A DNA stretch of 64,000 nt. It comes from Methylophilaceae bacterium (lineage in GTDB: Bacteria; Pseudomonadota; Gammaproteobacteria; Burkholderiales; Methylophilaceae). The notes beneath the pieces were generated by a model. That model worked only from the letters and a program-made list of their open reading frames with translations, was not told the origin of the DNA and searched no databases. This document shows, in pieces, positions 36,367 through 58,056 of this stretch (its first letter is position 1; each line of letters starts with the position of its first letter). Where the stretch lies: contig JACMMS010000077.1 of assembly GCA_014378915.1 (NCBI GenBank), positions 1 through 64,000 on the forward strand, given 5' to 3'. Both the position numbers and the translations under genes were made by a program.

Positions 36367-36478
36367 ATGAAAAAGCTAGGGTTTTAATTATTTGGCTTAT
36401 TGGTTAAGCTATTGATTGATGTTTTTTTTGGAGCATTTTTAAAAATAAAAGAGATGATAGCGTTTTTACGGTGCGCTA

Positions 36479-37138
36479 TTAATTTTGACTAACAGGCTGT
36501 CGCCAAGCGCGCCAACCTTCTTCTTGCATGCACATAATCAAACCACGGGTTGCTGTTTGATAGCTACTACTTGGTTTATGTGCTTCGCATAGCTTACCCA
36601 CGCATCGATTAATATCAGTTTTTAGCGCGTTCGCGGTACTGCCCGATTTCCACCAAGAGTTAATTTTAAATACTTGATACGGATCATCATCGAATACTTC
36701 GCTTTTAGTCGGTTCTGCTGCTTTTTTGTCCATTTCACTCGTATTTAATTGACCAGCACTTAAATCATTGGTGTTTGGTGTTACATGATGCGCTTTTTCT
36801 GTACTTGCATCTTTGGTTGATGAGGGCAGGGTGAACAGTAAACCACTTAACATATGCGACTCACCTAAATTTTGTACAGCCCAGCCCCGCGCTTGCAAAC
36901 ATTGTTTAATGACCTCATCAGTATTTTTGGCGGCCTCTTTTTCGTTTATATGTGCTACAGGCTTGCTGGGTGGAATAGACGCCGCACAAGCCAACTTATC
37001 TTTATCTAAATCTTGATAACTAGCCCCACGTTTGTAGCTTAAATCACCACAAGCACTTAGCAATAAGCTGCTAATTATTACAAACGTAAGACTAATGATA
37101 GCGCTAATTGTATGGTTAAATTTTATAGTTGTTTGCAT
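36479..37138 (-). CDS. Lipoprotein of unknown function
   Basis: A 219-aa protein with a signal peptide and lipobox (LLLSACGDL, cysteine about residue 30), so anchored by lipid and facing the periplasm. The mature part has two short similar Cys segments, VIKQCLQARGWAVQN (about 76-90) and RGLIMCMQEEGWRAWR (about 198-213), each with a Cys six residues before a GW. This suggests a duplicated small domain. No named family is recognised. Both flanks are noncoding; it stands alone between the glycan operon and the SDR pseudogene. Confidence 0.7.
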   Translation of the reverse strand: MQTTIKFNHTISAIISLTFVIISSLLLSACGDLSYKRGASYQDLDKDKLACAASIPPSKPVAHINEKEAAKNTDEVIKQCLQARGWAVQNLGESHMLSGLLFTLPSSTKDASTEKAHHVTPNTNDLSAGQLNTSEMDKKAAEPTKSEVFDDDPYQVFKINSWWKSGSTANALKTDINRCVGKLCEAHKPSSSYQTATRGLIMCMQEEGWRAWRQPVSQN

Positions 37139-37257
37139 GGCAAATACCTTTAATCAGTATGATCAAAATTATCAGATATGCTGATATTTTCAGTGGTTAG
37201 CAACTCATTTTGATAGGCTCATTAACTAATTTTGAATAATAGTTAGCAATTAGAATG

Positions 37258-38015
37258 TTAAATAAATATACCACCTGACACTTCAATGCGCTGTGCATTG
37301 ATCCAGCGGCTATCATCGGCTAATAATGATGCAACGACACCACCAATATCATCTGGCATACCAACACGACCTAACGCAGTATGTGCGGCAATAAATTGGT
37401 TAAGCTCTTTATTATCGCGCACGGCACCACCACCAAAATCAGTTTCAATGGCGCCTGGCGCTATAACATTTACACCTATACCACGTGGGCCCAGCTCTTT
37501 AGCCATATACTTAGTTAAGGTCTCAACGCCGCCTTTCATGATGGCATAAGCCGCGTACCCAGGAAATACAAAGCGCGTTAGACCACTTGAGATGTTCACG
37601 ATACGGCCTTGGTTTGCAATTACCGGTAATAATTTTTGTGTGAGGAAAAACACACCTTTTAGATGCATATTAACCATTTGATCAAACTGCTCTTCAGTTG
37701 TTTCGGCAAATGAGGCATGTACACCTATGCCTGCATTATTGACCAAAAATTCAAATTGTTCACGATTCCAAATTTGCTTGAGTGTAGCTTGTACTTGTTG
37801 TGCAAATTCGGCAAAAGATTTGCTATTAGTCACATCAAGTTGTAATGCCACTGCTTTTTGTCCAAACTCTTCAATTTATGAGACGACTTCATCGGCCTCA
37901 GCTTTTTTGCTGTGGTAGGTTAATATGATATCTACCCCTTTTTTAGCCAATGTTAACGCCGTATTTTTACCAAGACCGCGGCTGCCCTGGTAATTATTGC
38001 AATTTTGCTGTTCAT
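37258..38015 (-). pseudogene. SDR oxidoreductase, broken by a frameshift and a nonsense codon
   Basis: The complete coding path would begin at the ATG at 38015 (preceded by AAGGAGC) with MNSKIAIIT. It then shifts frame near 37984-37990 into SRGLGKNTALTLAKKGVDII, meets TAA at 37876-37878, and continues as AVALQLDVTNSKSFAEFAQQ through to the end at 37258. The residual 197-codon frame includes the catalytic YAAYAIMKGG (Tyr-x3-Lys) and GVNVIAPGAIETDF. The nucleotide-binding loop is lost, so a functional enzyme is unlikely. An ordinary classical SDR of about 250 aa. Confidence 0.88.
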
Positions 38016-38161
38016 ATTAAGCTCCTTAAAATAAGTATTAAAAATTAGTGAGTAACTTAAATACGATTTATTTAGTTATTTACCCAAATAGAAGAAACCA
38101 TCTAAAACGTTTACAAATATATCGAGTGGTAACAACATTGAACAAAAGTATGCTCATTAAT

Positions 38162-38620
38162 CTAGGCTCTTAAATGCATTGTTAAACCTTTTAAAAAGTA
38201 ACGTAGCACTTGGTCGCCACAAGGGCGATAATTATCAGTGCCTTTTTTTCTAAAAAAAGCGCTTAGTTCTGGTTTTGATATTTCATAATCAGCATTGCCA
38301 AAAACCTCATGCATTTGGTCTTCTTTTAATTCAAATGCTACACGTAATTTTTTGAGCGCTAAATTATTACTCATTTTTTCTATAGGTAAAGGCTGAGAAC
38401 TTTCATTTTTACCACGCTTAAATGTGACTAAACCATTTAAAAATGCAATCATTAACGCATCATCACATGGCAGATATTGCTCATCTTCTTCATCGCGTAA
38501 AAAATCTTTAATATCGCCACGTTCAATAGACATCTCGGCTAATTGCCAAACTTCGACCATTTTGGGTTCGCTCATATCCAACATATAGCGAATGCTTCTA
38601 AGTACATCATTGTTTGTCAA
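38162..38620 (-). CDS. yehS: DUF1456 protein (YehS-like)
   Basis: A 152-aa protein made of two similar DUF1456 halves. The first starts LTNNDVLRSIRYMLDMSE and ends MIAFLNGLVTFKRGK. The second, after NNLALKKLRVAFELKEDQ, ends CGDQVLRYFLKGLTMHLR. The TTG start at 38620 is chosen because AGGA lies 6 bases before it and the family begins with this segment; an upstream TTG at 38644 lacks such support. Function of the family is unknown. The YgjP remnant ends 30 bases upstream. Confidence 0.86.
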   Translation of the reverse strand: MTNNDVLRSIRYMLDMSEPKMVEVWQLAEMSIERGDIKDFLRDEEDEQYLPCDDALMIAFLNGLVTFKRGKNESSQPLPIEKMSNNLALKKLRVAFELKEDQMHEVFGNADYEISKPELSAFFRKKGTDNYRPCGDQVLRYFLKGLTMHLRA

Positions 38621-38650
38621 AATTCTTCCTAATATTTTATCCAAGCTGTA

Positions 38651-39115
38651 TTACCACAGCAGTTGCTTATTTAAATCCAAATGCGTTAAATACAACCTTA
38701 AATCAAATTCAAAATGATGATAATCACGTTCCATACTGGTACATAACTGATAAAACGCTTTGTTATGGTCATGCTGTTTAAAGTGTGCCAGTTCATGCAC
38801 AGTAATCATGTTTAAAAACTCAACAGGAACATTTTTAAACAAGCTCGCGACCCTAATTTCACGCTTGGTTTTAAGTTTAACACCCTGTACTCGTGAAATT
38901 GAAGTATGTAACACTAACGCATGTTCAATGATTTGTATTTTACTATCGAAAAGCGCTTTGTTGAGCGGCGCAGCCGTTTCGCATAAACTTATTTTTAACC
39001 TCTAAAACATAGCTGTAAAGCGCTTTGTCAGTGATAATTTCATGTGCTAGTGGGTATTTTTGAAGCAAATAATCAGCTAATTTTTGTTAGCTGATCAAAT
39101 CGGTTACGTATGCTT
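38651..39115 (-). pseudogene. YgjP-type metallopeptidase, decayed N-terminal half
   Basis: The C-terminal 87 codons are intact and include the zinc motif VHELAHFKQHDHNKAFYQLC and HHFEFDLRLYLTHL. Upstream, KLADYLLQKYPLAHEIITDK then ALYSYVLEVKNKFMRN lie in another frame because of an extra base near 38970-38976. In-frame stops (TAA at 39087-39089) occur earlier still. Both frames read as parts of one YgjP-like (DUF45) protein. The start is lost; the 5' limit given is approximate. Confidence 0.85.
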
Positions 39116-39220
39116 AAATGCTAAGTGAGTAAGCAGATACGTATTTAAGTGGCGTTGGTTTACATAAGACAATGGTCATGTCCTTTCATGAATATTGCTT
39201 ATAGGCCTCATAATAAAACC

Positions 39221-39297
39221 TGGTGCGCCCGGCGGGAGTCGAACCCACTACCTTCGGCTTCGGAAACCGACACTCTATCCAAATGAGCTACGGGCGC
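39221..39297 (-). tRNA. tRNA-Arg (anticodon CCG)
   Basis: A 77-base tRNA with CCA encoded. The acceptor GCGCCCG pairs with CGGGCGC. The D-arm is GCTCATTTGGATAGAGT. The anticodon stem TCGGT/GCCGA (one G-T pair) encloses TTCCGAA with anticodon CCG, and the T-arm contains GGTTCGACTCC. Reads CGG codons. Confidence 0.96.
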
Positions 39298-39433
39298 TTC
39301 ATTATTTACTATTATAACAAACGAGACGGTCAGTTCAGGATAATTACTGATCAAACAAGCGCATAAAATTGTGTATATGCACAAAATATAGGCATTTTTG
39401 TGCGCTTTTTAGTACGGAACTTTAACTATTAGG

Positions 39434-39439
39434 TATAAT
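39434..39439 (+). promoter_or_regulatory. Candidate -10 box for the cytochrome c5-like gene
   Basis: A perfect TATAAT 29 bases before the ATG at 39469. No good -35 is found 16-18 bases upstream (AGTACG). An imperfect inverted repeat (GCGCATAAAA at about 39359 and TTTTGTGCGC at about 39398) lies just upstream and could be a regulator site. Confidence 0.35.
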
Positions 39440-39468
39440 TTAGACTATTAACATATTAATGAAAATTG

Positions 39469-40107
39469 ATGGCGATGAGTAACAACGATAAACACTACAA
39501 GGGCTCCACCTTTTGGCAATTAATGATTGCAATTCCAGGAAGTATTTTAGGATTTACTTTACTAATCGCTTTGTTGGCTAAAGGCTTACACCCAGCAAGT
39601 GAAATTGCAACTGTAGCCCCTGAAACAGCAGCTGCTAAAGTAGAGGAAAGTATCAAGCCAGTCGCCGTTGTTGAAGTCGCTGCTGCACCAGCTGGCGCCC
39701 ATGTCGATAAAGGTGGTGAAGAAGTCGTAAAAGCGGTCTGTTCAGCTTGCCATGCCGCTGGTTTAATGGGTTCGCCAAAAATTGGTGACAAAGGCCAATG
39801 GGGTCCACGTATTGCGCAAGGTTACGAAACATTAGTCAATCATGCGATTCATGGTATCCGTATGATGCCTGCTAAAGGTGGTAATCCAGATTTAACAGAT
39901 GGCGAAATTGCAAACGCGGTAGCTTACATGGCAAATCAGGCTGGCGCTAATTTCAAAGCACCAGCCGCTGGTGCCCCAGCGCCTATAGCAGCAGCTGAGT
40001 CCACTGCAACAGCAGCTACAGAACAGCCAGTTGCTGCTAAATCAGCAACAGAAAAAACTGCAAAAGTAGCTGCTGCCCCAGTGGCAAAAAATCGGATGGT
40101 TTTGTAG
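39469..40107 (+). CDS. Cytochrome c5-like monohaem protein (first half of a former diheme protein)
   Basis: A 212-aa protein with an N-terminal membrane anchor (about residues 12-34) and one haem c domain. The haem site is VCSACH (about residues 88-93), with RMMPAKGG supplying the distal Met. A long Ala/Pro-rich tail follows (about 165-212). The frame would read on into a second haem domain but for a lost A in the A6 run at 40086-40091. As is, it ends soon after at 40105-40107. An electron carrier facing the periplasm is likely. ATG 39475 is an alternative start; no strong ribosome site is seen. Confidence 0.84.
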   Translation: MAMSNNDKHYKGSTFWQLMIAIPGSILGFTLLIALLAKGLHPASEIATVAPETAAAKVEESIKPVAVVEVAAAPAGAHVDKGGEEVVKAVCSACHAAGLMGSPKIGDKGQWGPRIAQGYETLVNHAIHGIRMMPAKGGNPDLTDGEIANAVAYMANQAGANFKAPAAGAPAPIAAAESTATAATEQPVAAKSATEKTAKVAAAPVAKNRMVL

Positions 40108-46346: not shown

Positions 46347-46664
46347 TTAATCTACACTTTCTACAATATTTTCTTTAGCCGCTATTACTTTCCCCATTAT
46401 CATTAACAACCCCATGTTAATAAAAAAATAAATGACAGTATTAATGAGCATGCGAAGTGCAAATCCTGGCCACCAACCAGATCCAGCATATGCATAAATA
46501 CTATCGACCATTAACCAATCAATAAGTGATGCAATCGCAAACGCAATGAGCGAGGGCGCAAAAATTCTCCCTTCAAGTTCCGTCTCGCATATCGCGCATG
46601 CAAAGTAGGGTTTAACCTTAAGCGGGTTAATGCGCTTGTTACATGAGGGACAGTGAATTGTCAT
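46347..46664 (-). CDS. Zinc-ribbon plus membrane-helix protein
   Basis: A 105-aa protein. The start has two C-x2-C pairs (C5/C8 and C23/C26; CPSC and CAIC), a zinc ribbon. Then come two to three hydrophobic helices (about residues 36-56, 60-80 and 78-98; LIAFAIASLIDWLMVDSIYA, VIYFFINMGLLMIMG). The start at 46664 is preferred: AAGGTA lies a few bases upstream and the longer frame overlaps the next gene. Similar small zinc-ribbon membrane proteins exist in Methylophilaceae; the function is not known. Last gene of a four-gene operon. Confidence 0.72.
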   Translation of the reverse strand: MTIHCPSCNKRINPLKVKPYFACAICETELEGRIFAPSLIAFAIASLIDWLMVDSIYAYAGSGWWPGFALRMLINTVIYFFINMGLLMIMGKVIAAKENIVESVD

Positions 46665-46677
46665 GCCAAATACCTTA

Positions 46678-47493
46678 TTAACTTCTAGAATTTTCCATAA
46701 GCATGGGTGTGTAATTGCAACGTACTTTTTGCAGAATTTGCATAATAATTTTTTGGTCAGCAACTTTGCTTGATACATTGCCGCCAATAATATTTTCTAT
46801 GTAAATTGCCTTGTAAGAGTCTGGCATTTGCAACGCCTCTGGAAACTGGCAATTACCTTTACGCATTTGTTCTAGGGTAGCAAGTAATACTGCAGTTTCT
46901 TCTGGGCTGGCAATGAGTTGGCTAGCAATTTCGGGCTTGCTCACAGTCAGGTTGATTAAATTGGGCTTAGCCGTTTTTGTATTGGCTGCGATGATTGCTT
47001 GAGTATCTAAATTTAGTTCGCTAGTGAACCATAGCCCACCCATTAAAACGCATATACCAATGATGCTAGCAGCCATGGCGTAAGCGGAGGATTTTTTAAT
47101 ATAAAACTCTTGCTTGGTTTGGGCGGTGATAAGTGCTGTTGCCACATTTTTTGCATGGCTAAAACTTACAGAAAAGTCCGTAAAGGCCAAGTTTGCAGAT
47201 TTACTTAACCTTAAGGACTCTTGAATAGCAGACAGCACCATAAAATATAGCTGATGTGCCAGCATAGCGGGCTCTTGAGCGCCAGCAAGTGCGGCCTGTT
47301 GGGTTAAGTAATGCTCTAAATCGTTAGAAATAGGTTGATATTGTGGAGACGCATTTTTACGAAGGTTTTCTGCTACATTTGGCGCGCTCAGCAAATCATT
47401 TAGTATATCAAACAGGCTTAATAATCTCCCATGCGGTGATTTGCTCGATTTTTTTAGCATGTTAATCAGCCAGTCTGAATTGAGAATGTCCAT
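46678..47493 (-). CDS. Membrane protein with a TetR-C-like cytoplasmic domain and no HTH
   Basis: A 271-aa protein with one central helix (about residues 136-156; AMAASIIGICVLMGGLWFTS). The N-terminal part (about 15-130) resembles the ligand domain of the TetR at 44.9-45.5 kb: SPHGRLLSLFDILNDLLSAP and QAALAGAQEPAMLAHQLYFM against KLFDFIEEWVTAP and LAAQAGIKDAEGLSLQLSM. The upstream gene ends only 23 bases before it, so no HTH can be hidden there. The C-terminal, probably periplasmic, part (about 157-271) has two Cys and no recognised motif. No family is assigned; a TetR-derived sensory or scaffold domain is my inference. Confidence 0.62.
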   Translation of the reverse strand: MDILNSDWLINMLKKSSKSPHGRLLSLFDILNDLLSAPNVAENLRKNASPQYQPISNDLEHYLTQQAALAGAQEPAMLAHQLYFMVLSAIQESLRLSKSANLAFTDFSVSFSHAKNVATALITAQTKQEFYIKKSSAYAMAASIIGICVLMGGLWFTSELNLDTQAIIAANTKTAKPNLINLTVSKPEIASQLIASPEETAVLLATLEQMRKGNCQFPEALQMPDSYKAIYIENIIGGNVSSKVADQKIIMQILQKVRCNYTPMLMENSRS

Positions 47494-52638: not shown

Positions 52639-53442
52639 TTATGAGTTTAGTACCCCAACAATAGCACCTTGCTCTTTTAACCCCAGCAAAATATCTGTAC
52701 CAAACTCGATTACAGCATCTAAATCCGGATGCTTAATCTCATTAGTAAGTTGCGTTAGGGCTTGCTTTCCTGTGAGTTTGTTTGGTCCAAGTAATTGCAA
52801 TAATCTAAACGTTACAGCGTTTAACTCAATAAACTGTACTCTATTAGTGATATCTCTAAACACCAATAAAAAGGTGGCTTCTGGCTGTGTTGGTTTGAAT
52901 TTTTTAGATATTTTATGAACGGGGTAGTCGTACTTTAACAATGCGCTAACTTCTACCAATACAGGTTTTTTTGTGAGTAAATCATCTTTTAAATTGATCG
53001 ATGTGGTTTCTATCTCTTTGATTATAGAGGTACTTAAAGCTAATTCTATCCATTCATAATGAGCGAGTTGGCTTAGAAATGGTGGAAGATTTTTATTAGT
53101 CAGTAAGCTAGTGTGTTTATGTTGGCTTTCTAAAAATTTCAAAAACTCCTGTGGGACTTCTTTATAAATCGGCGTTTGTGATTGGTAGTTAATAAAGAAA
53201 TCGCGTATCAATGTTGTCCAAGCACGTTTACCCATCACGAGTTGAGCCACTGGAAAGCACGCCGATACTGAGCTGACTATATTGTTAAATACAATTTCAG
53301 TATAAATAGCCATGCCTTTTGCAGAAGCTTTTGCTGGTTTTGGTGCAGATTTCGGTTGGCGTAAGTGCTTTGTAAAAGCTAGTTGATAACGTTGAAAATC
53401 CAATAAATCCATAATTGCATGATCATCATTGTTTTCAGACAT
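52639..53442 (-). CDS. BufC/HvfC-type DUF2063 protein of the MNIO operon
   Basis: A 267-aa protein of the HvfC/BufC (DUF2063, putative DNA-binding-like) family. The N-terminal region DFQRYQLAFTKHLRQPK and YTEIVFNNIVSSVSACFPVA (about residues 47-66), plus RAWTTLIRDFFINYQSQTPI, match the recognition domain of these partners. In known systems it binds the MNIO enzyme and the precursor leader. It follows the MNIO gene with 1 base between. It ends a minus-strand operon; no terminator stands out in the 112 bases after it (52527-52638). Confidence 0.85.
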   Translation of the reverse strand: MSENNDDHAIMDLLDFQRYQLAFTKHLRQPKSAPKPAKASAKGMAIYTEIVFNNIVSSVSACFPVAQLVMGKRAWTTLIRDFFINYQSQTPIYKEVPQEFLKFLESQHKHTSLLTNKNLPPFLSQLAHYEWIELALSTSIIKEIETTSINLKDDLLTKKPVLVEVSALLKYDYPVHKISKKFKPTQPEATFLLVFRDITNRVQFIELNAVTFRLLQLLGPNKLTGKQALTQLTNEIKHPDLDAVIEFGTDILLGLKEQGAIVGVLNS

Positions 53443-53443
53443 A

Positions 53444-54367
53444 TTAAGCAGTTTGTTGATAGCGTTTTGAGTCTGTCAACAGCGTGTCATTAACTAACCC
53501 ACTACCGTAAACTGCTTGCAATTCAGCGATTTTATTGACTTCATTCATTAGTATTTCTAGTGGTGGAATATGAGTATCGCGCTCTAATAGCGTGGGAAAT
53601 TGACCATATAATTGGTAGGCTTCAACGAGTAAAGCCCAAACTGGATTTATAACATTTTCGCCATGCGTATCTACTAATAGGTTGGCGTGCTCTTGTAAAT
53701 GCCCTGCAATATGACCGTAAACAATGCGTTGCTTTGGTAGTCCCCGCAAAAATGCGTGAGCATCAAATCTAAAATTAATGCTATTTACATAAATATTGTT
53801 GATGTCTAGATGTAAATTACAGTCAGCTTCGCTTAATACAGCATTTAAAAAAGTGAGCTCGTCCATAGTGGAAATAGGCGCTGCAACGTAAAACGAGGTG
53901 TTTTCTATCGCAATACGTTGTTCCAAAATATCTTGCGTTCGTATGATACGTTTGGCAACGTAATGCACGGCTTCATCCGTGAATGGAATGGGTAATAAAT
54001 CGTACAAATATCCACGCTGACCATTATAAAAGTCGGTACAGTAGCTTAAATGCTCGGTATAAAGTGAAATATTGTGTTGTTTGAGAAATGATTTTACTTG
54101 CAGTAAAAAAGCCTCGTTTAGCGGATCTGGGCCACCAAGTGATAGACATAATCCGTGGCAAACAATAGGGTAGCGTTCTGTAAACCATGATAAATCTTGT
54201 GCCGTTTTACCACCTGCATCTATCCAATTTTCTGGAGCAATTTCTACAAAATCTATATTTTTTATTTTATCTCGACCATATAACTTTTGAATTTGGGATA
54301 TCAGCTCGCGTTTTAGCCCCAGTCCAGAACCTGTAATACTATATTTTTGAAGGCTAGTTTTTATCAT
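53444..54367 (-). CDS. MNIO (DUF692) multinuclear iron oxidase, BufB/HvfB-like
   Basis: A 307-aa TIM-barrel enzyme that uses two or three iron ions to modify cysteines of a precursor peptide. Metal-site blocks are CHGLCLSLGGPDP, LYTEHLSYC, IAIENTSFYV, LHLDINNIYVNS, YGHIAGH and LLERDTHIPPLE. A TTG 3 codons upstream is a weaker start. It lies 68 bases after the precursor gene. In related systems the product is 5-thiooxazole or oxazolone-thioamide groups that hold copper. Precursor cysteines are thus its likely targets. Confidence 0.9.
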   Translation of the reverse strand: MIKTSLQKYSITGSGLGLKRELISQIQKLYGRDKIKNIDFVEIAPENWIDAGGKTAQDLSWFTERYPIVCHGLCLSLGGPDPLNEAFLLQVKSFLKQHNISLYTEHLSYCTDFYNGQRGYLYDLLPIPFTDEAVHYVAKRIIRTQDILEQRIAIENTSFYVAAPISTMDELTFLNAVLSEADCNLHLDINNIYVNSINFRFDAHAFLRGLPKQRIVYGHIAGHLQEHANLLVDTHGENVINPVWALLVEAYQLYGQFPTLLERDTHIPPLEILMNEVNKIAELQAVYGSGLVNDTLLTDSKRYQQTA

Positions 54368-54435
54368 ATTAGTCAACGATGTTTCTAATTACGGGATGCA
54401 GGCTAATATTTAAATACTATTATTCAATGGTCGTA

Positions 54436-54762
54436 TTATTTTACTTTGTCAGCGTTGCACGATCCATCTTGCATTTTCATGCCAGCTTTGCAGCTACCTT
54501 CAGCTGATTTTTCCATTGGCTTCATTTCATCTGATTTTTCCATTGACTGCATTTCAGCTTTCTTTTTACTCGCACTACATTTGCCTGTGCCTGTGCCACA
54601 TTTGCTATCTTTCATTTCTGTATCAGCTTCTGCCACCATATAGCCAGAAGACAGTGACTTTGCAGCGAATGGATTCGAAGCTGCGTTAACGGTGGTGGCT
54701 GCAATTGATAGTGCAAATGCACCGCTAACAGCTAGTGCTAGTACTTTAGTAGTTGTCGTCAT
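54436..54762 (-). CDS. Bufferin-like RiPP precursor (BufA/HvfA type), four cysteines
   Basis: A 108-aa secreted precursor. It begins with a signal peptide (MTTTTKVLALAVSGAFALSI, then VNA cleavage near residue 27). Cysteines are C55, C62, C91 and C102. The first pair is in DSKCGTGTGKCS and the second in EGSCKAG and DGSCNADK. Between them lies a Met/Lys/Glu-rich spacer with repeated SMEKS/PMEKS units (about residues 66-88). A strong AAAAAGGAAA ribosome site precedes the ATG. Long signal-peptide precursors of this kind are called bufferins. This one lacks the tandem EGKCG repeats of the best-known forms, so its modification pattern may differ. Confidence 0.8.
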   Translation of the reverse strand: MTTTTKVLALAVSGAFALSIAATTVNAASNPFAAKSLSSGYMVAEADTEMKDSKCGTGTGKCSASKKKAEMQSMEKSDEMKPMEKSAEGSCKAGMKMQDGSCNADKVK

Positions 54763-54823
54763 GATGTTTCCTTTTTAATTAAATTTAAATTGAGAAGTTG
54801 ATTACCTAATTTGTCTACGCAGT

Positions 54824-55078
54824 TTAATTATGATTGGATTCAATCAATTTTTTGATGCGCTCTTTAGCTTCTAGCGGTAGTTGTATAGACGTATCTTTTT
54901 CTGTTTGATTCAACAATTTTTTTATGGCTGAGTGCAGCGCAAAAAGCTGCTGTTTAAAGCGCGTGCTCATATCACACATGAGTAAATGCAGGCGCAACTT
55001 AAATTTTTCAGTAAAAGATAAACGTTGATCTAATGATTTAGAAATAAGCTGGCTGGCATATTTACAAGAAATAATCAT
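54824..55078 (-). CDS. Zinc-finger anti-sigma-factor-like protein
   Basis: An 84-aa protein resembling the zf-HC2 type of anti-sigma factor. ISCKYASQLISKSLDQRL then HLLMCDMSTRFKQQ gives a C-x3-S...C arrangement: the expected H-x3-C-x2-C is degenerate (MCDMST). The longer frame reaching 55102 uses TTG. It follows the ECF sigma pseudogene directly (about 40 bases) and precedes bufA, as in bufferin operons. With the sigma broken it may have no partner. Confidence 0.76.
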   Translation of the reverse strand: MIISCKYASQLISKSLDQRLSFTEKFKLRLHLLMCDMSTRFKQQLFALHSAIKKLLNQTEKDTSIQLPLEAKERIKKLIESNHN

Positions 55079-55116
55079 TTTGTATCTAAACCTTCCTAAC
55101 AAATTTGCAGCTCAAG

Positions 55117-55681
55117 TTAGCCATTTATTTCCAAACATTTTCTCAACCCCATACGGGCTCTATGTAACATCACCCAAGCATTAGTCGGGCTGATATCTAG
55201 TTCCTTACAAATTTATTCGTTATCATCTTCATGTAAATCACGCAGCAAAAATAAATAAGCTAATTTTTTTGGTAACTTATCCATACAGGATTGTAGAACA
55301 GATAAAAAAATTGCTTTTGTTCTAAGGCGTTATCAGGGATATCCCAATCTTCTGGGGCTTCTGACCAATGGCCTGTATGATCGAAAGACTCATCCATGCC
55401 TAGTTCATCAAAGGCTATTTGCTCAACGTCCTCCAAAGATTGTTCTTTGCTTTGTTTGCGGATTAAATCGATTATTTTGTGTTTTAAAATGCCAGTTAGC
55501 CAAGTACGTTGCGCAGATTGTTCGGCAAAATTAGGGCTTTTAATCGCAGCTAAAAAAGTTTCTTGCACGACATCTTCCCCAAGTGTGGGTCGCTCAAACG
55601 ACCTAAAGCAAAGCGATAGAGGTAATCGCCGTGGGCATTTAGCCAATCATGTTGATTTTTAGCTAATAGATTTTGTGCCAT
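55117..55681 (-). pseudogene. ECF-type RNA polymerase sigma factor, broken
   Basis: The whole protein can be traced. From the ATG at 55681, NLLAKNQHDWLNAHGDYLYR ends in LGRLSD, then shifts near 55586-55589 to LGEDVVQETFLAAIK (sigma region 2). WLTGILKHKIIDLIRKQSKE follows to LEQKQFF, with a shift in the A7 run at 55304-55310, then LSVLQSCMDKLPKKLAYLFL and DLHEDDNE. A TAA at 55213-55215 precedes ICKELDISPTNAWVMLHRAR (sigma region 4). Two frameshifts and one nonsense codon together rule out a full-length sigma factor. Confidence 0.86.
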
Positions 55682-55767: not shown

Positions 55768-56208
55768 TTAATGAGGCGTGACTTTTTGCTGCATTAATAA
55801 TAAGTAATTTTCTGTATCAAGTGGCTGCTGGTTACGCTGCGCTTGCCAAATGGTTTCTGCTAAGCAATCAATTAACTCATGTTGTGCATCTAATTCATTT
55901 TGATGTTTGGCAATCAGCTGTTGGTAGACGGTTGTAATTCCGATTGGCTGATTAATGCTGATTTGCTCTAACACTGACATATGTAAGCTCATATGCAAAA
56001 ATGGGTTGGTTTCACCAATTTCAGGAAAATATTGTTGCTGCATGTAGCGCTTGGCATTGCCCAAAATAGCATGGTATTCGGGGTGTGATTGCATCACTTG
56101 CACGGCAATTTTTTCCACCCCTTCAAGTAGCTGATTTTGTTTAAACTTGTGCCAAGTATTAAAAAAGAACTCGCGTACTTGATCACGACTCGGGTTAAAT
56201 AAGCTCAT
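55768..56208 (-). CDS. DUF1841 protein
   Basis: A 146-aa protein beginning SLFNPSRDQVREFFFNTWHK and containing HPEYHAILGNAKRYMQQQYF and NPFLHMSLHMSVLEQISINQ, the DUF1841 hallmark, plus a terminal helix (DCLAETIWQAQRNQQPLD). Its ATG overlaps the FIST gene stop by 4 bases. Betaproteobacterial family, function unknown. Confidence 0.9.
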   Translation of the reverse strand: MSLFNPSRDQVREFFFNTWHKFKQNQLLEGVEKIAVQVMQSHPEYHAILGNAKRYMQQQYFPEIGETNPFLHMSLHMSVLEQISINQPIGITTVYQQLIAKHQNELDAQHELIDCLAETIWQAQRNQQPLDTENYLLLMQQKVTPH

Positions 56209-57386
56209 GATGCTGTATCTTCTTTAAATAATCCTAGTACTGCAGAGTATTGCAAGAGCTCATTTTTCCCATTGATAGGGGCTATTTCACCATTACCGTA
56301 AAAACCAATAAACGGCATGTTGGGATAAAGCTCACGCAAAATAAGTAGATCTTTATCTTGCCCGCCATATAAATATGGACCGCGCCCTAGGCAAGAAAAT
56401 AATAAGCCAAAATCGGGCGCGCTAGATGTGTCAGATAATTTATTTAAGGTAATACCTAATAGGTTTGCAGTTGATTTAAAATCCTTTGCTGCTGCTTGTT
56501 CATCTCTAATTGCCCAGCATAACCATTGTTGCTCAGTAAGCACTTTGGCTAATGTAACGGTTTCAGCACCCTCGTCACATGCGATGAGTGAGGCTAGGTT
56601 GTATTCTCCGTCTTCAATAAGCGCAAGAGTATCCGCATAAACTGCAATCAATTGATGCATAGGCAAGTTTGCATTGTCATAGTGTGTTTCCCACGCAATC
56701 TGCAAACTTTGCAGCGCAGATATTTTATTTAATGTCACCATATCATGCTCAATACAGGATGTGACTAACTCTGGCATATTCAAAAAACGTAGGCCATGGC
56801 TGGCGGTAACTGCACCTTGAGTATTATGGAGCTCAACTTCGCAGCGACCTTGAACTGTACCCTTGCCGTTTTCCCATACCGAAAAAGGTCCATGTCCAAT
56901 CGCATCACCTGATACAGCACCAAAACGCAAACCGCGATGATTAAGCCAAGTTGTATTAATGGCATTGGGTGCAGTCAAGGCTAACAGTAATTGGTCTTGC
57001 AACGGTTCCCGCACATTGCTTAAGTGTATGTCACCGCTAAATATCATCACAGCAGCGGCAGGGCTATCTATTACCCAATCTTCTTCTGTGAAAATACCTG
57101 TGGCTGAGCAGCCAATAATTTGTGTGCAATTGGCAGTTTTTGCGGCCGCCTTAATAGCAGATTGCGGATCGTTAGCAAACTCTGAAGTTAAAAATAGCAA
57201 TACGCTACTTGCAACCCCGATTTCTGCTTTTTGCATAGCACTGGATATTGCTTGCGTCACTAATTGTGCCGCTAATTCCGCAGTGTTTTGTACGGTACTA
57301 CTCGCAATATTTTTACCTGATTTTTTCGTGCTACTTGCGGTTGCTAAACCCGTTGCAACTTTGCTTGCTTGTTTAATTGGTGTCAT
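56205..57386 (-). CDS. FIST N/C-domain sensory protein
   Basis: A 393-aa protein with FIST-N (about residues 40-225) and FIST-C (about 235-380) regions. Supporting segments are TQIIGCSATGIFTEEDWV and MILKF-like VMIFSGDIHLSNV, and near the C-terminus LLFSCLGRGPYLYG and MPFIGFYGNGEIAPINGKNE. FIST domains bind small ligands such as amino acids and normally feed into signalling proteins. Here no kinase, GGDEF or methyl-accepting domain is attached. It lies 7 bases after nth and is coupled to the DUF1841 gene, so a housekeeping role is possible. Confidence 0.88.
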   Translation of the reverse strand: MTPIKQASKVATGLATASSTKKSGKNIASSTVQNTAELAAQLVTQAISSAMQKAEIGVASSVLLFLTSEFANDPQSAIKAAAKTANCTQIIGCSATGIFTEEDWVIDSPAAAVMIFSGDIHLSNVREPLQDQLLLALTAPNAINTTWLNHRGLRFGAVSGDAIGHGPFSVWENGKGTVQGRCEVELHNTQGAVTASHGLRFLNMPELVTSCIEHDMVTLNKISALQSLQIAWETHYDNANLPMHQLIAVYADTLALIEDGEYNLASLIACDEGAETVTLAKVLTEQQWLCWAIRDEQAAAKDFKSTANLLGITLNKLSDTSSAPDFGLLFSCLGRGPYLYGGQDKDLLILRELYPNMPFIGFYGNGEIAPINGKNELLQYSAVLGLFKEDTAS

Positions 57387-57393
57387 TTTCTGA

Positions 57394-58056
57394 TTATCTG
57401 GTAACAGATGGATATGTGGCTATATGGGTGGTTTTGTCTTTGTACTCACACACCTGAGCAATCACACATTCGCTACATTTAGGGTTACGCGCAACACAAG
57501 TATAGCGTCCATGCAGAATTAAAAGATGATGCGCATCTTTTAAGTAGACTTTAGGCACATTTTTCATGAGGTTTTTTTCTACCTCTAGCGGTGTTTTGCC
57601 AGGGGCCAACTTGGTGCGATTACCTAATCTAAATAAGTGCGTATCTACAGCAATCGTTGGTTCCCCAAAAGCTGTATTAAGTATCACATTGGCTGTTTTA
57701 CGGCCTACACCTGGTAAGCTTTCTAGTGCATTACGCGAGTTTGGCACCATGCTATTGTGCTGTTCTACCAGCTGTTTGCAAGTTGCAATGATGTTTTTGG
57801 CTTTACTATGATAAAGCCCGATAGTTTTAATGTAGCTTTCTAAACCAATAATCCCCAAATCAAAAATCGCTGGTGGCGTATTGGCTACTTCAAATAGCTT
57901 GGCTGTAGCAATATTAACCCCTTTGTCAGTTGACTGTGCCGATAAAATGACGGCAATCAACAGTTCAAAAGTACTGTTATGGGTAAGTTCGGTGGTGGGA
58001 TTTTGTATGGCGGCTGCCAAACATTCAAACATGATTAAACGTTTGGCAGCGTTCAT
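57394..58056 (-). CDS. nth: Endonuclease III
   Basis: A 220-aa DNA glycosylase/AP lyase that removes oxidised pyrimidines. The helix-hairpin-helix and catalytic Lys lie in LESLPGVGRKTANVILN (about residues 109-125), with the Asp in AVDTHLFRLGNR (about 135-146). The [4Fe-4S] cysteines are in CVARNPKCSECVIAQVC (C-x6-C-x2-C-x5-C, about 188-204). It follows rnfE by 42 bases; the rnf-nth link is conserved in many proteobacteria. Confidence 0.96.
   Translation of the reverse strand: MNAAKRLIMFECLAAAIQNPTTELTHNSTFELLIAVILSAQSTDKGVNIATAKLFEVANTPPAIFDLGIIGLESYIKTIGLYHSKAKNIIATCKQLVEQHNSMVPNSRNALESLPGVGRKTANVILNTAFGEPTIAVDTHLFRLGNRTKLAPGKTPLEVEKNLMKNVPKVYLKDAHHLLILHGRYTCVARNPKCSECVIAQVCEYKDKTTHIATYPSVTR

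Follow-up and report, generated by a model that had tools for sequence, protein, structure and literature searches.

Our analysis of a 64,000-nucleotide stretch of a Methylophilaceae genome (here referred to as the window) raised the question of what becomes of a RiPP operon when the sigma factor gene next to it is broken. Operons of the HvfABC type, widespread among Pseudomonadota, are regarded as stress-induced, and the window carries one of them behind a dead ECF sigma gene. The original prediction had left two outcomes, transcription from some other promoter or the onset of decay. The minus-strand order that it gave (sigma, anti-sigma, precursor, MNIO, DUF2063 partner), together with the coordinates, was correct. 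On the same strand, the conserved neighbourhood starts with nth (endonuclease III, 57394..58056), followed by a FIST-domain gene (56205..57386) that overlaps the start of the DUF1841 gene (55768..56208; Pfam DUF1841), the conserved upstream neighbour of the operon and the likely source of read-through. In relatives, losses of this FIST gene, located between nth and DUF1841, frequently coincide with losses of the sigma pair, as though the two were linked (L061, L074, L079, L270-L273, L278). A convergent gene lies 3′ of the operon. Elsewhere in the window, at 36400-39500 and 46347-47493, short adjacent frames resemble further gene remnants.

The biosynthetic part of the operon consists of hvfB (53444..54376), encoding an intact 310-amino-acid MNIO (MbnB_TglH_ChrH) that matches PDB 3bww, and hvfC (52639..53442), encoding an intact 267-amino-acid RRE/DUF2063 partner with the Pfam domains DUF2063 and NGO1945_C and a match to PDB 3dee. 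The MNIO scored 389 bits against the NCBIfam HvfB model NF003818 (cut-off of 360) and its partner 251 bits against the HvfC model NF050145 (cut-off of 142), whereas the MNIO reached only 256 bits against the BufB model, below its cut-off of 310. The precursor gene hvfA (54436..54762) is an open frame encoding a signal peptide and four cysteines, homologous to sister precursors along its whole length, and its product matched no Pfam family, DUF2282 included. Judged by these scores, the operon is a HvfABC-type (oxazolin/captophorin) RiPP operon. The prediction thus held in that the operon is of the MNIO RiPP kind and its cognate sigma factor is dead, while the assignment to the bufferins (BufABC) was ruled out by the BufB score and the lack of DUF2282.

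At 55117..55681, homology to ECF sigma factors is clear and its nearest NCBIfam models are TIGR02943/PRK12520; however, it is spread over three frames with one internal stop, and an intact ECF sigma factor with regions 2 and 4 is absent. Alignment with five intact relatives placed the loss of one base, causing a frameshift, near 55577..55580 of the minus strand. On the same strand, alignment with intact relatives revealed two additional bases in a T run at 55304..55310, again shifting the frame, an in-frame TAA stop ahead of region 4 at 55213..55215, and a C-terminal frameshift near 55121..55124 that removes the last few residues. The two frameshifts and the stop that had been claimed were therefore borne out, and the C-terminal frameshift came in addition. 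From the operon context and from the neighbouring open frame at 54824..55078, a ZAS (zinc-type) anti-sigma gene (NCBIfam NF052368 antisigmaE, 54.7 bits, cut-off of 50), we read the dead factor as belonging to the Neisseria SigE/Haemophilus influenzae RpoE2 type. A comparison with sister loci, proposed along with the original prediction, found the sigma gene intact in 27 of 29 of them, and in a second collection it was intact in 45 of the 50 readable loci of Methylophilaceae type.

A close HvfB was present in 84 of 150 family genomes (counted by hand), many thus being without one, and in most genomes with a close HvfB the corresponding position is occupied by an intact sigma orthologue. The order nth-FIST-DUF1841-sigma-antisigma-hvfABC is ancestral in Methylophilaceae, with DUF1841 located directly upstream of the sigma gene or, where this was deleted, of hvfA. 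The sigma gene is broken in G088/L063, G076/L076, G041 and L079, persists as a fused remnant in G069/L074, and is absent from G126/L061, G109, G023 and the g20 genomes G066, G075, G093 and G081; hvfABC is present in all sigma-less loci where the contig allows it to be seen. On a 58-taxon tree of nth, DUF1841, hvfB and hvfC, these cases and the window amount to ten independent losses (about 9-10, as the neighbouring cases G041 and G069 would merge into a single loss should a node of moderate support not hold), with different lesions or clean deletions depending on the lineage. The reverse state, a sigma gene kept without a close hvfB, was seen in fewer genomes (G001, G025, G082 and G129). This recurrence of sigma loss with retention of hvfABC is the main new result, and searches of the open-licence literature gave no account of it. 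Pelagic Methylophilaceae are known for genome streamlining with an overall loss of sigma factors (PMC6794327), and several of the sigma-less genomes are small; those of the window (2.56 Mb) and of G109 (2.8 Mb) are not reduced. As a separate observation, G145 (L279 and L280) offers a reverse case, with sigma, anti-sigma and hvfA intact, hvfB in three frames and hvfC not found, and with a second sigma/anti-sigma and hvfABC set on another contig.

The enzymes of the window look constrained. Its HvfB departs from its homologues at only 2 of 125 near-invariant columns, and its divergence relative to between-genus distances is 1.12 for hvfB and 1.01 for hvfC, inside the range of the control genes (DUF1841, 1.07; queA, 0.95; nth, 1.38), with hvfA at 1.28. 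A long branch in the protein tree had suggested relaxed selection on the hvfB of the window, an idea that was dropped because the controls diverge comparably. In the 2064 bp of hvfABC there are 0 lesions against 11 expected at the density of the three sigma lesions counted (P of about 2e-5), a test that assumes equal time without constraint and thus shows retention of hvfABC beyond that of the sigma gene, not its duration. In five sigma-less lineages compared with their nearest intact relatives, hvfB dN/dS was 0.04-0.085, against 0.03-0.135 for intact pairs, several of the dS values being near saturation, which points to purifying selection on hvfB in the lineages tested. These ratios come from relatives only, and as the data set contains no close relative of the window lineage, the retention of hvfABC after the death of sigma is undatable in this genome.

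Read from the sequence, the damage extends beyond sigma to the anti-sigma factor and the precursor. The anti-sigma of the window reads HLLMCDMS where its relatives have HxxxCxxC, so that the last Cys is replaced by Ser; the sister loci (28 of 28) and every unbroken anti-sigma of the second collection show this motif. In the N. meningitidis anti-sigma, Cys34 is essential for activity and Cys37 is important (PMC2893595); the window protein lacks the equivalent of Cys37. The precursor has four cysteines and no GKCG at all, only SKCG and GKCS, whereas (E/D)GKCG repeats mark the secreted Cys-rich precursors of HvfABC operons. In its core, DSKCGTGTGKCSAS, a two-residue insertion places the first two cysteines six residues apart instead of the usual four. 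It is the sole precursor of the 59 compared without GKCG, each of the 58 distinct relatives having at least one, and in this it differs from those of all other sigma-less lineages read, which kept the motif. The claim that the biosynthetic genes and the precursor are intact consequently stood for the frames of hvfA, hvfB and hvfC, which are open, and not for the motifs of the precursor.

These changes bear on the main alternative, that the whole system is decaying in the window lineage, sigma having gone first and the anti-sigma and precursor motifs next, with hvfB and hvfC intact only because sigma died recently. The lost zinc ligand, the precursor with its missing GKCG and altered Cys spacing, the divergence ratio of hvfA, the decay of another ECF locus of this genome and the many family genomes without a close hvfB all fit such a course, and the loss of every GKCG may mean that the product of the window is failing. 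However, the lesion-free hvfABC and the rates of hvfB and hvfC, no faster than those of control genes, argue against it. Moreover, the related enzyme pair FonBC accepted many exchanges of residues near the Cys, although it was strict for the one after it (PMC13097082), and a Ser in that position also occurs in intact sister precursors, so a loss of processing does not follow and the precursor may still work. With the motifs missing from its precursor, decay in the window lineage keeps an appreciable probability, though on balance we consider it unlikely.

Repeated loss of sigma with hvfABC retained, together with purifying selection on hvfB, favours uncoupling of the operon from its switch. 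Between the two outcomes originally proposed, the relatives thus speak for expression by other means, and the precursor of the window leaves room for decay. By analogy with Neisseria and Haemophilus, the adjacent ECF sigma would ancestrally have switched the operon on, with the ZAS anti-sigma restraining it. In the window lineage, sigma would then have died and the idle anti-sigma would have begun to lose its zinc motif, while hvfABC would have been kept through transcription without the cognate sigma, with read-through out of the nth-FIST-DUF1841 unit, or else a weak housekeeping promoter, as the most likely source. HvfBC would convert the cysteines of the precursor into copper-binding 5-thiooxazoles, the products of HvfABC relatives elsewhere (PMC13097082, PMC13419390). 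We infer that the operon of the window is expressed from such a source and that copper binding by its product persists. We give a probability of roughly 0.6 to the reading that hvfABC operons have repeatedly become uncoupled from the sigma switch and that the window shows this process at an early step, with function retained and expression coming from a housekeeping source.

The proposed succession of losses draws on the relatives. Wherever the locus could be resolved, an anti-sigma was broken only if its sigma was no longer intact, while the opposite combination, a dead sigma with the anti-sigma frame still open, occurs in the window and in G088; this suggests that sigma goes first and fits an order of sigma, then anti-sigma, then deletion. 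In G109, G066, G075, G093, G081, G023 and G126, hvfA follows DUF1841 after roughly 95-150 bases, and this close spacing in the clean deletions suggests that their hvfABC is transcribed from the nth-DUF1841 unit. A scan for sigma-70 promoters and terminators found fewer promoter-like sites than in shuffled sequence, so no new promoter was demonstrated, and inspection of the regions upstream of sigma and hvfA in relatives gave no convincing conserved ECF promoter motif. More tentatively, at slightly less than even odds, the same course may hold family-wide: an inducible, sigma-controlled copper-peptide system would repeatedly and independently have been made constitutive through the loss of sigma, then of the anti-sigma, and then a deletion placing hvfABC behind DUF1841, the window standing at an early stage in which the precursor is changing too.

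A further possibility was that the old sigma-dependent promoter is served in trans by another sigma factor. The search of the genome proposed for such a factor yielded no cognate: the only other intact ECF-type gene is SigK/ChrR-like, on C29, and a second ECF sigma locus of the same genome (L220, G000:C46, 6230-8975) is decayed by stops and frameshifts. Anti-sigma-like genes and genes resembling heavy-metal sensors belong to the latter locus, as does a downstream gene that is broken. The SigK-like gene is intact and about a tenth of the genome is missing from the assembly, which leaves some room for a substitute; nevertheless, the SigK-like factor is of another ECF group and has a ChrR-type partner, and no second gene of the dead sigma's type was found in the assembled ~90% of the genome, so that within this part a substitute in trans is very improbable.

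The lesions themselves are unlikely to be errors. When 357 kb of this genome were checked against a finished relative, as a sample of the genome's lesion rate, 40 orthologues could be tested and two were flagged, the sigma gene and one start-site artefact (2391-2825, an upstream extension), and coding density and ORF lengths were near those of the finished relative, which makes general sequence error an unlikely source. Although the window belongs to a draft assembly of 141 contigs and one lesion sits in a T run, sequencing or assembly error is the least credible explanation, given four separate lesions within 565 bases, one of them a substitution giving a stop, intact adjacent genes, no other truly broken orthologue among those tested, and the independent breakage of the same gene in several other lineages.

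As the operon was kept through about ten independent sigma losses, these lineages would offer replicate natural experiments on whether constant production of the peptide is of use and on what replaces the switch, and they make the order of loss in a sigma/anti-sigma pair testable by genome comparison.

Among known systems, bufferins (Buf1/Buf2) share with the window the MNIO superfamily and the DUF2063 partner (PMC12452194), and they differ in the BufB score and the DUF2282 precursor discussed above. The streamlined pelagic Methylophilaceae are set apart by their reduced genomes; a term search of the paper describing them met no mention of copper or DUF-named genes, so that it does not seem to deal with this operon (PMC6794327). 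The captophorins fontiphorin and gonophorin, which carry 5-thiooxazoles and bind copper, are likewise made by an MNIO and PME1 (DUF2063) from a precursor with Lys-Cys repeats (PMC13097082); the precursor of the window differs by its altered Cys spacing and by carrying SKCG and GKCS where GKCG would be expected. The hvfABCX operon of H. influenzae (oxazolin, RpoE2/HrsE) resembles the window in its HvfB and HvfC families and its Cys-rich secreted precursor (PMC7907618, PMC13419390). There, RpoE2 controls the operon, and the inducer shown for this sigma factor is hypochlorite, not copper (PMC7907618). The claim that sigma/anti-sigma pairs control such operons under copper or metal stress is supported as to control (PMC2893595, PMC7907618) and, for H. 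influenzae, not as to the copper signal. In H. influenzae, control lies with an ECF sigma and its small ZAS anti-sigma, the same type of pair as in the window, where sigma is dead; the pair lies elsewhere and is intact, and a DoxX gene belongs to the operon, whereas in the window the pair lies within the operon and a convergent gene follows hvfC. The NMB2140-2145 cluster of N. meningitidis, the remaining genes of which include an MNIO/DUF2063 pair, has, like the window, both an ECF sigma and a ZAS anti-sigma in one operon. The sigmaE and anti-sigma (MseR) encoded within that operon (PMC2893595) form a working switch in which sigma is functional and autoregulated, in contrast to the pseudogene that occupies its place in the window.
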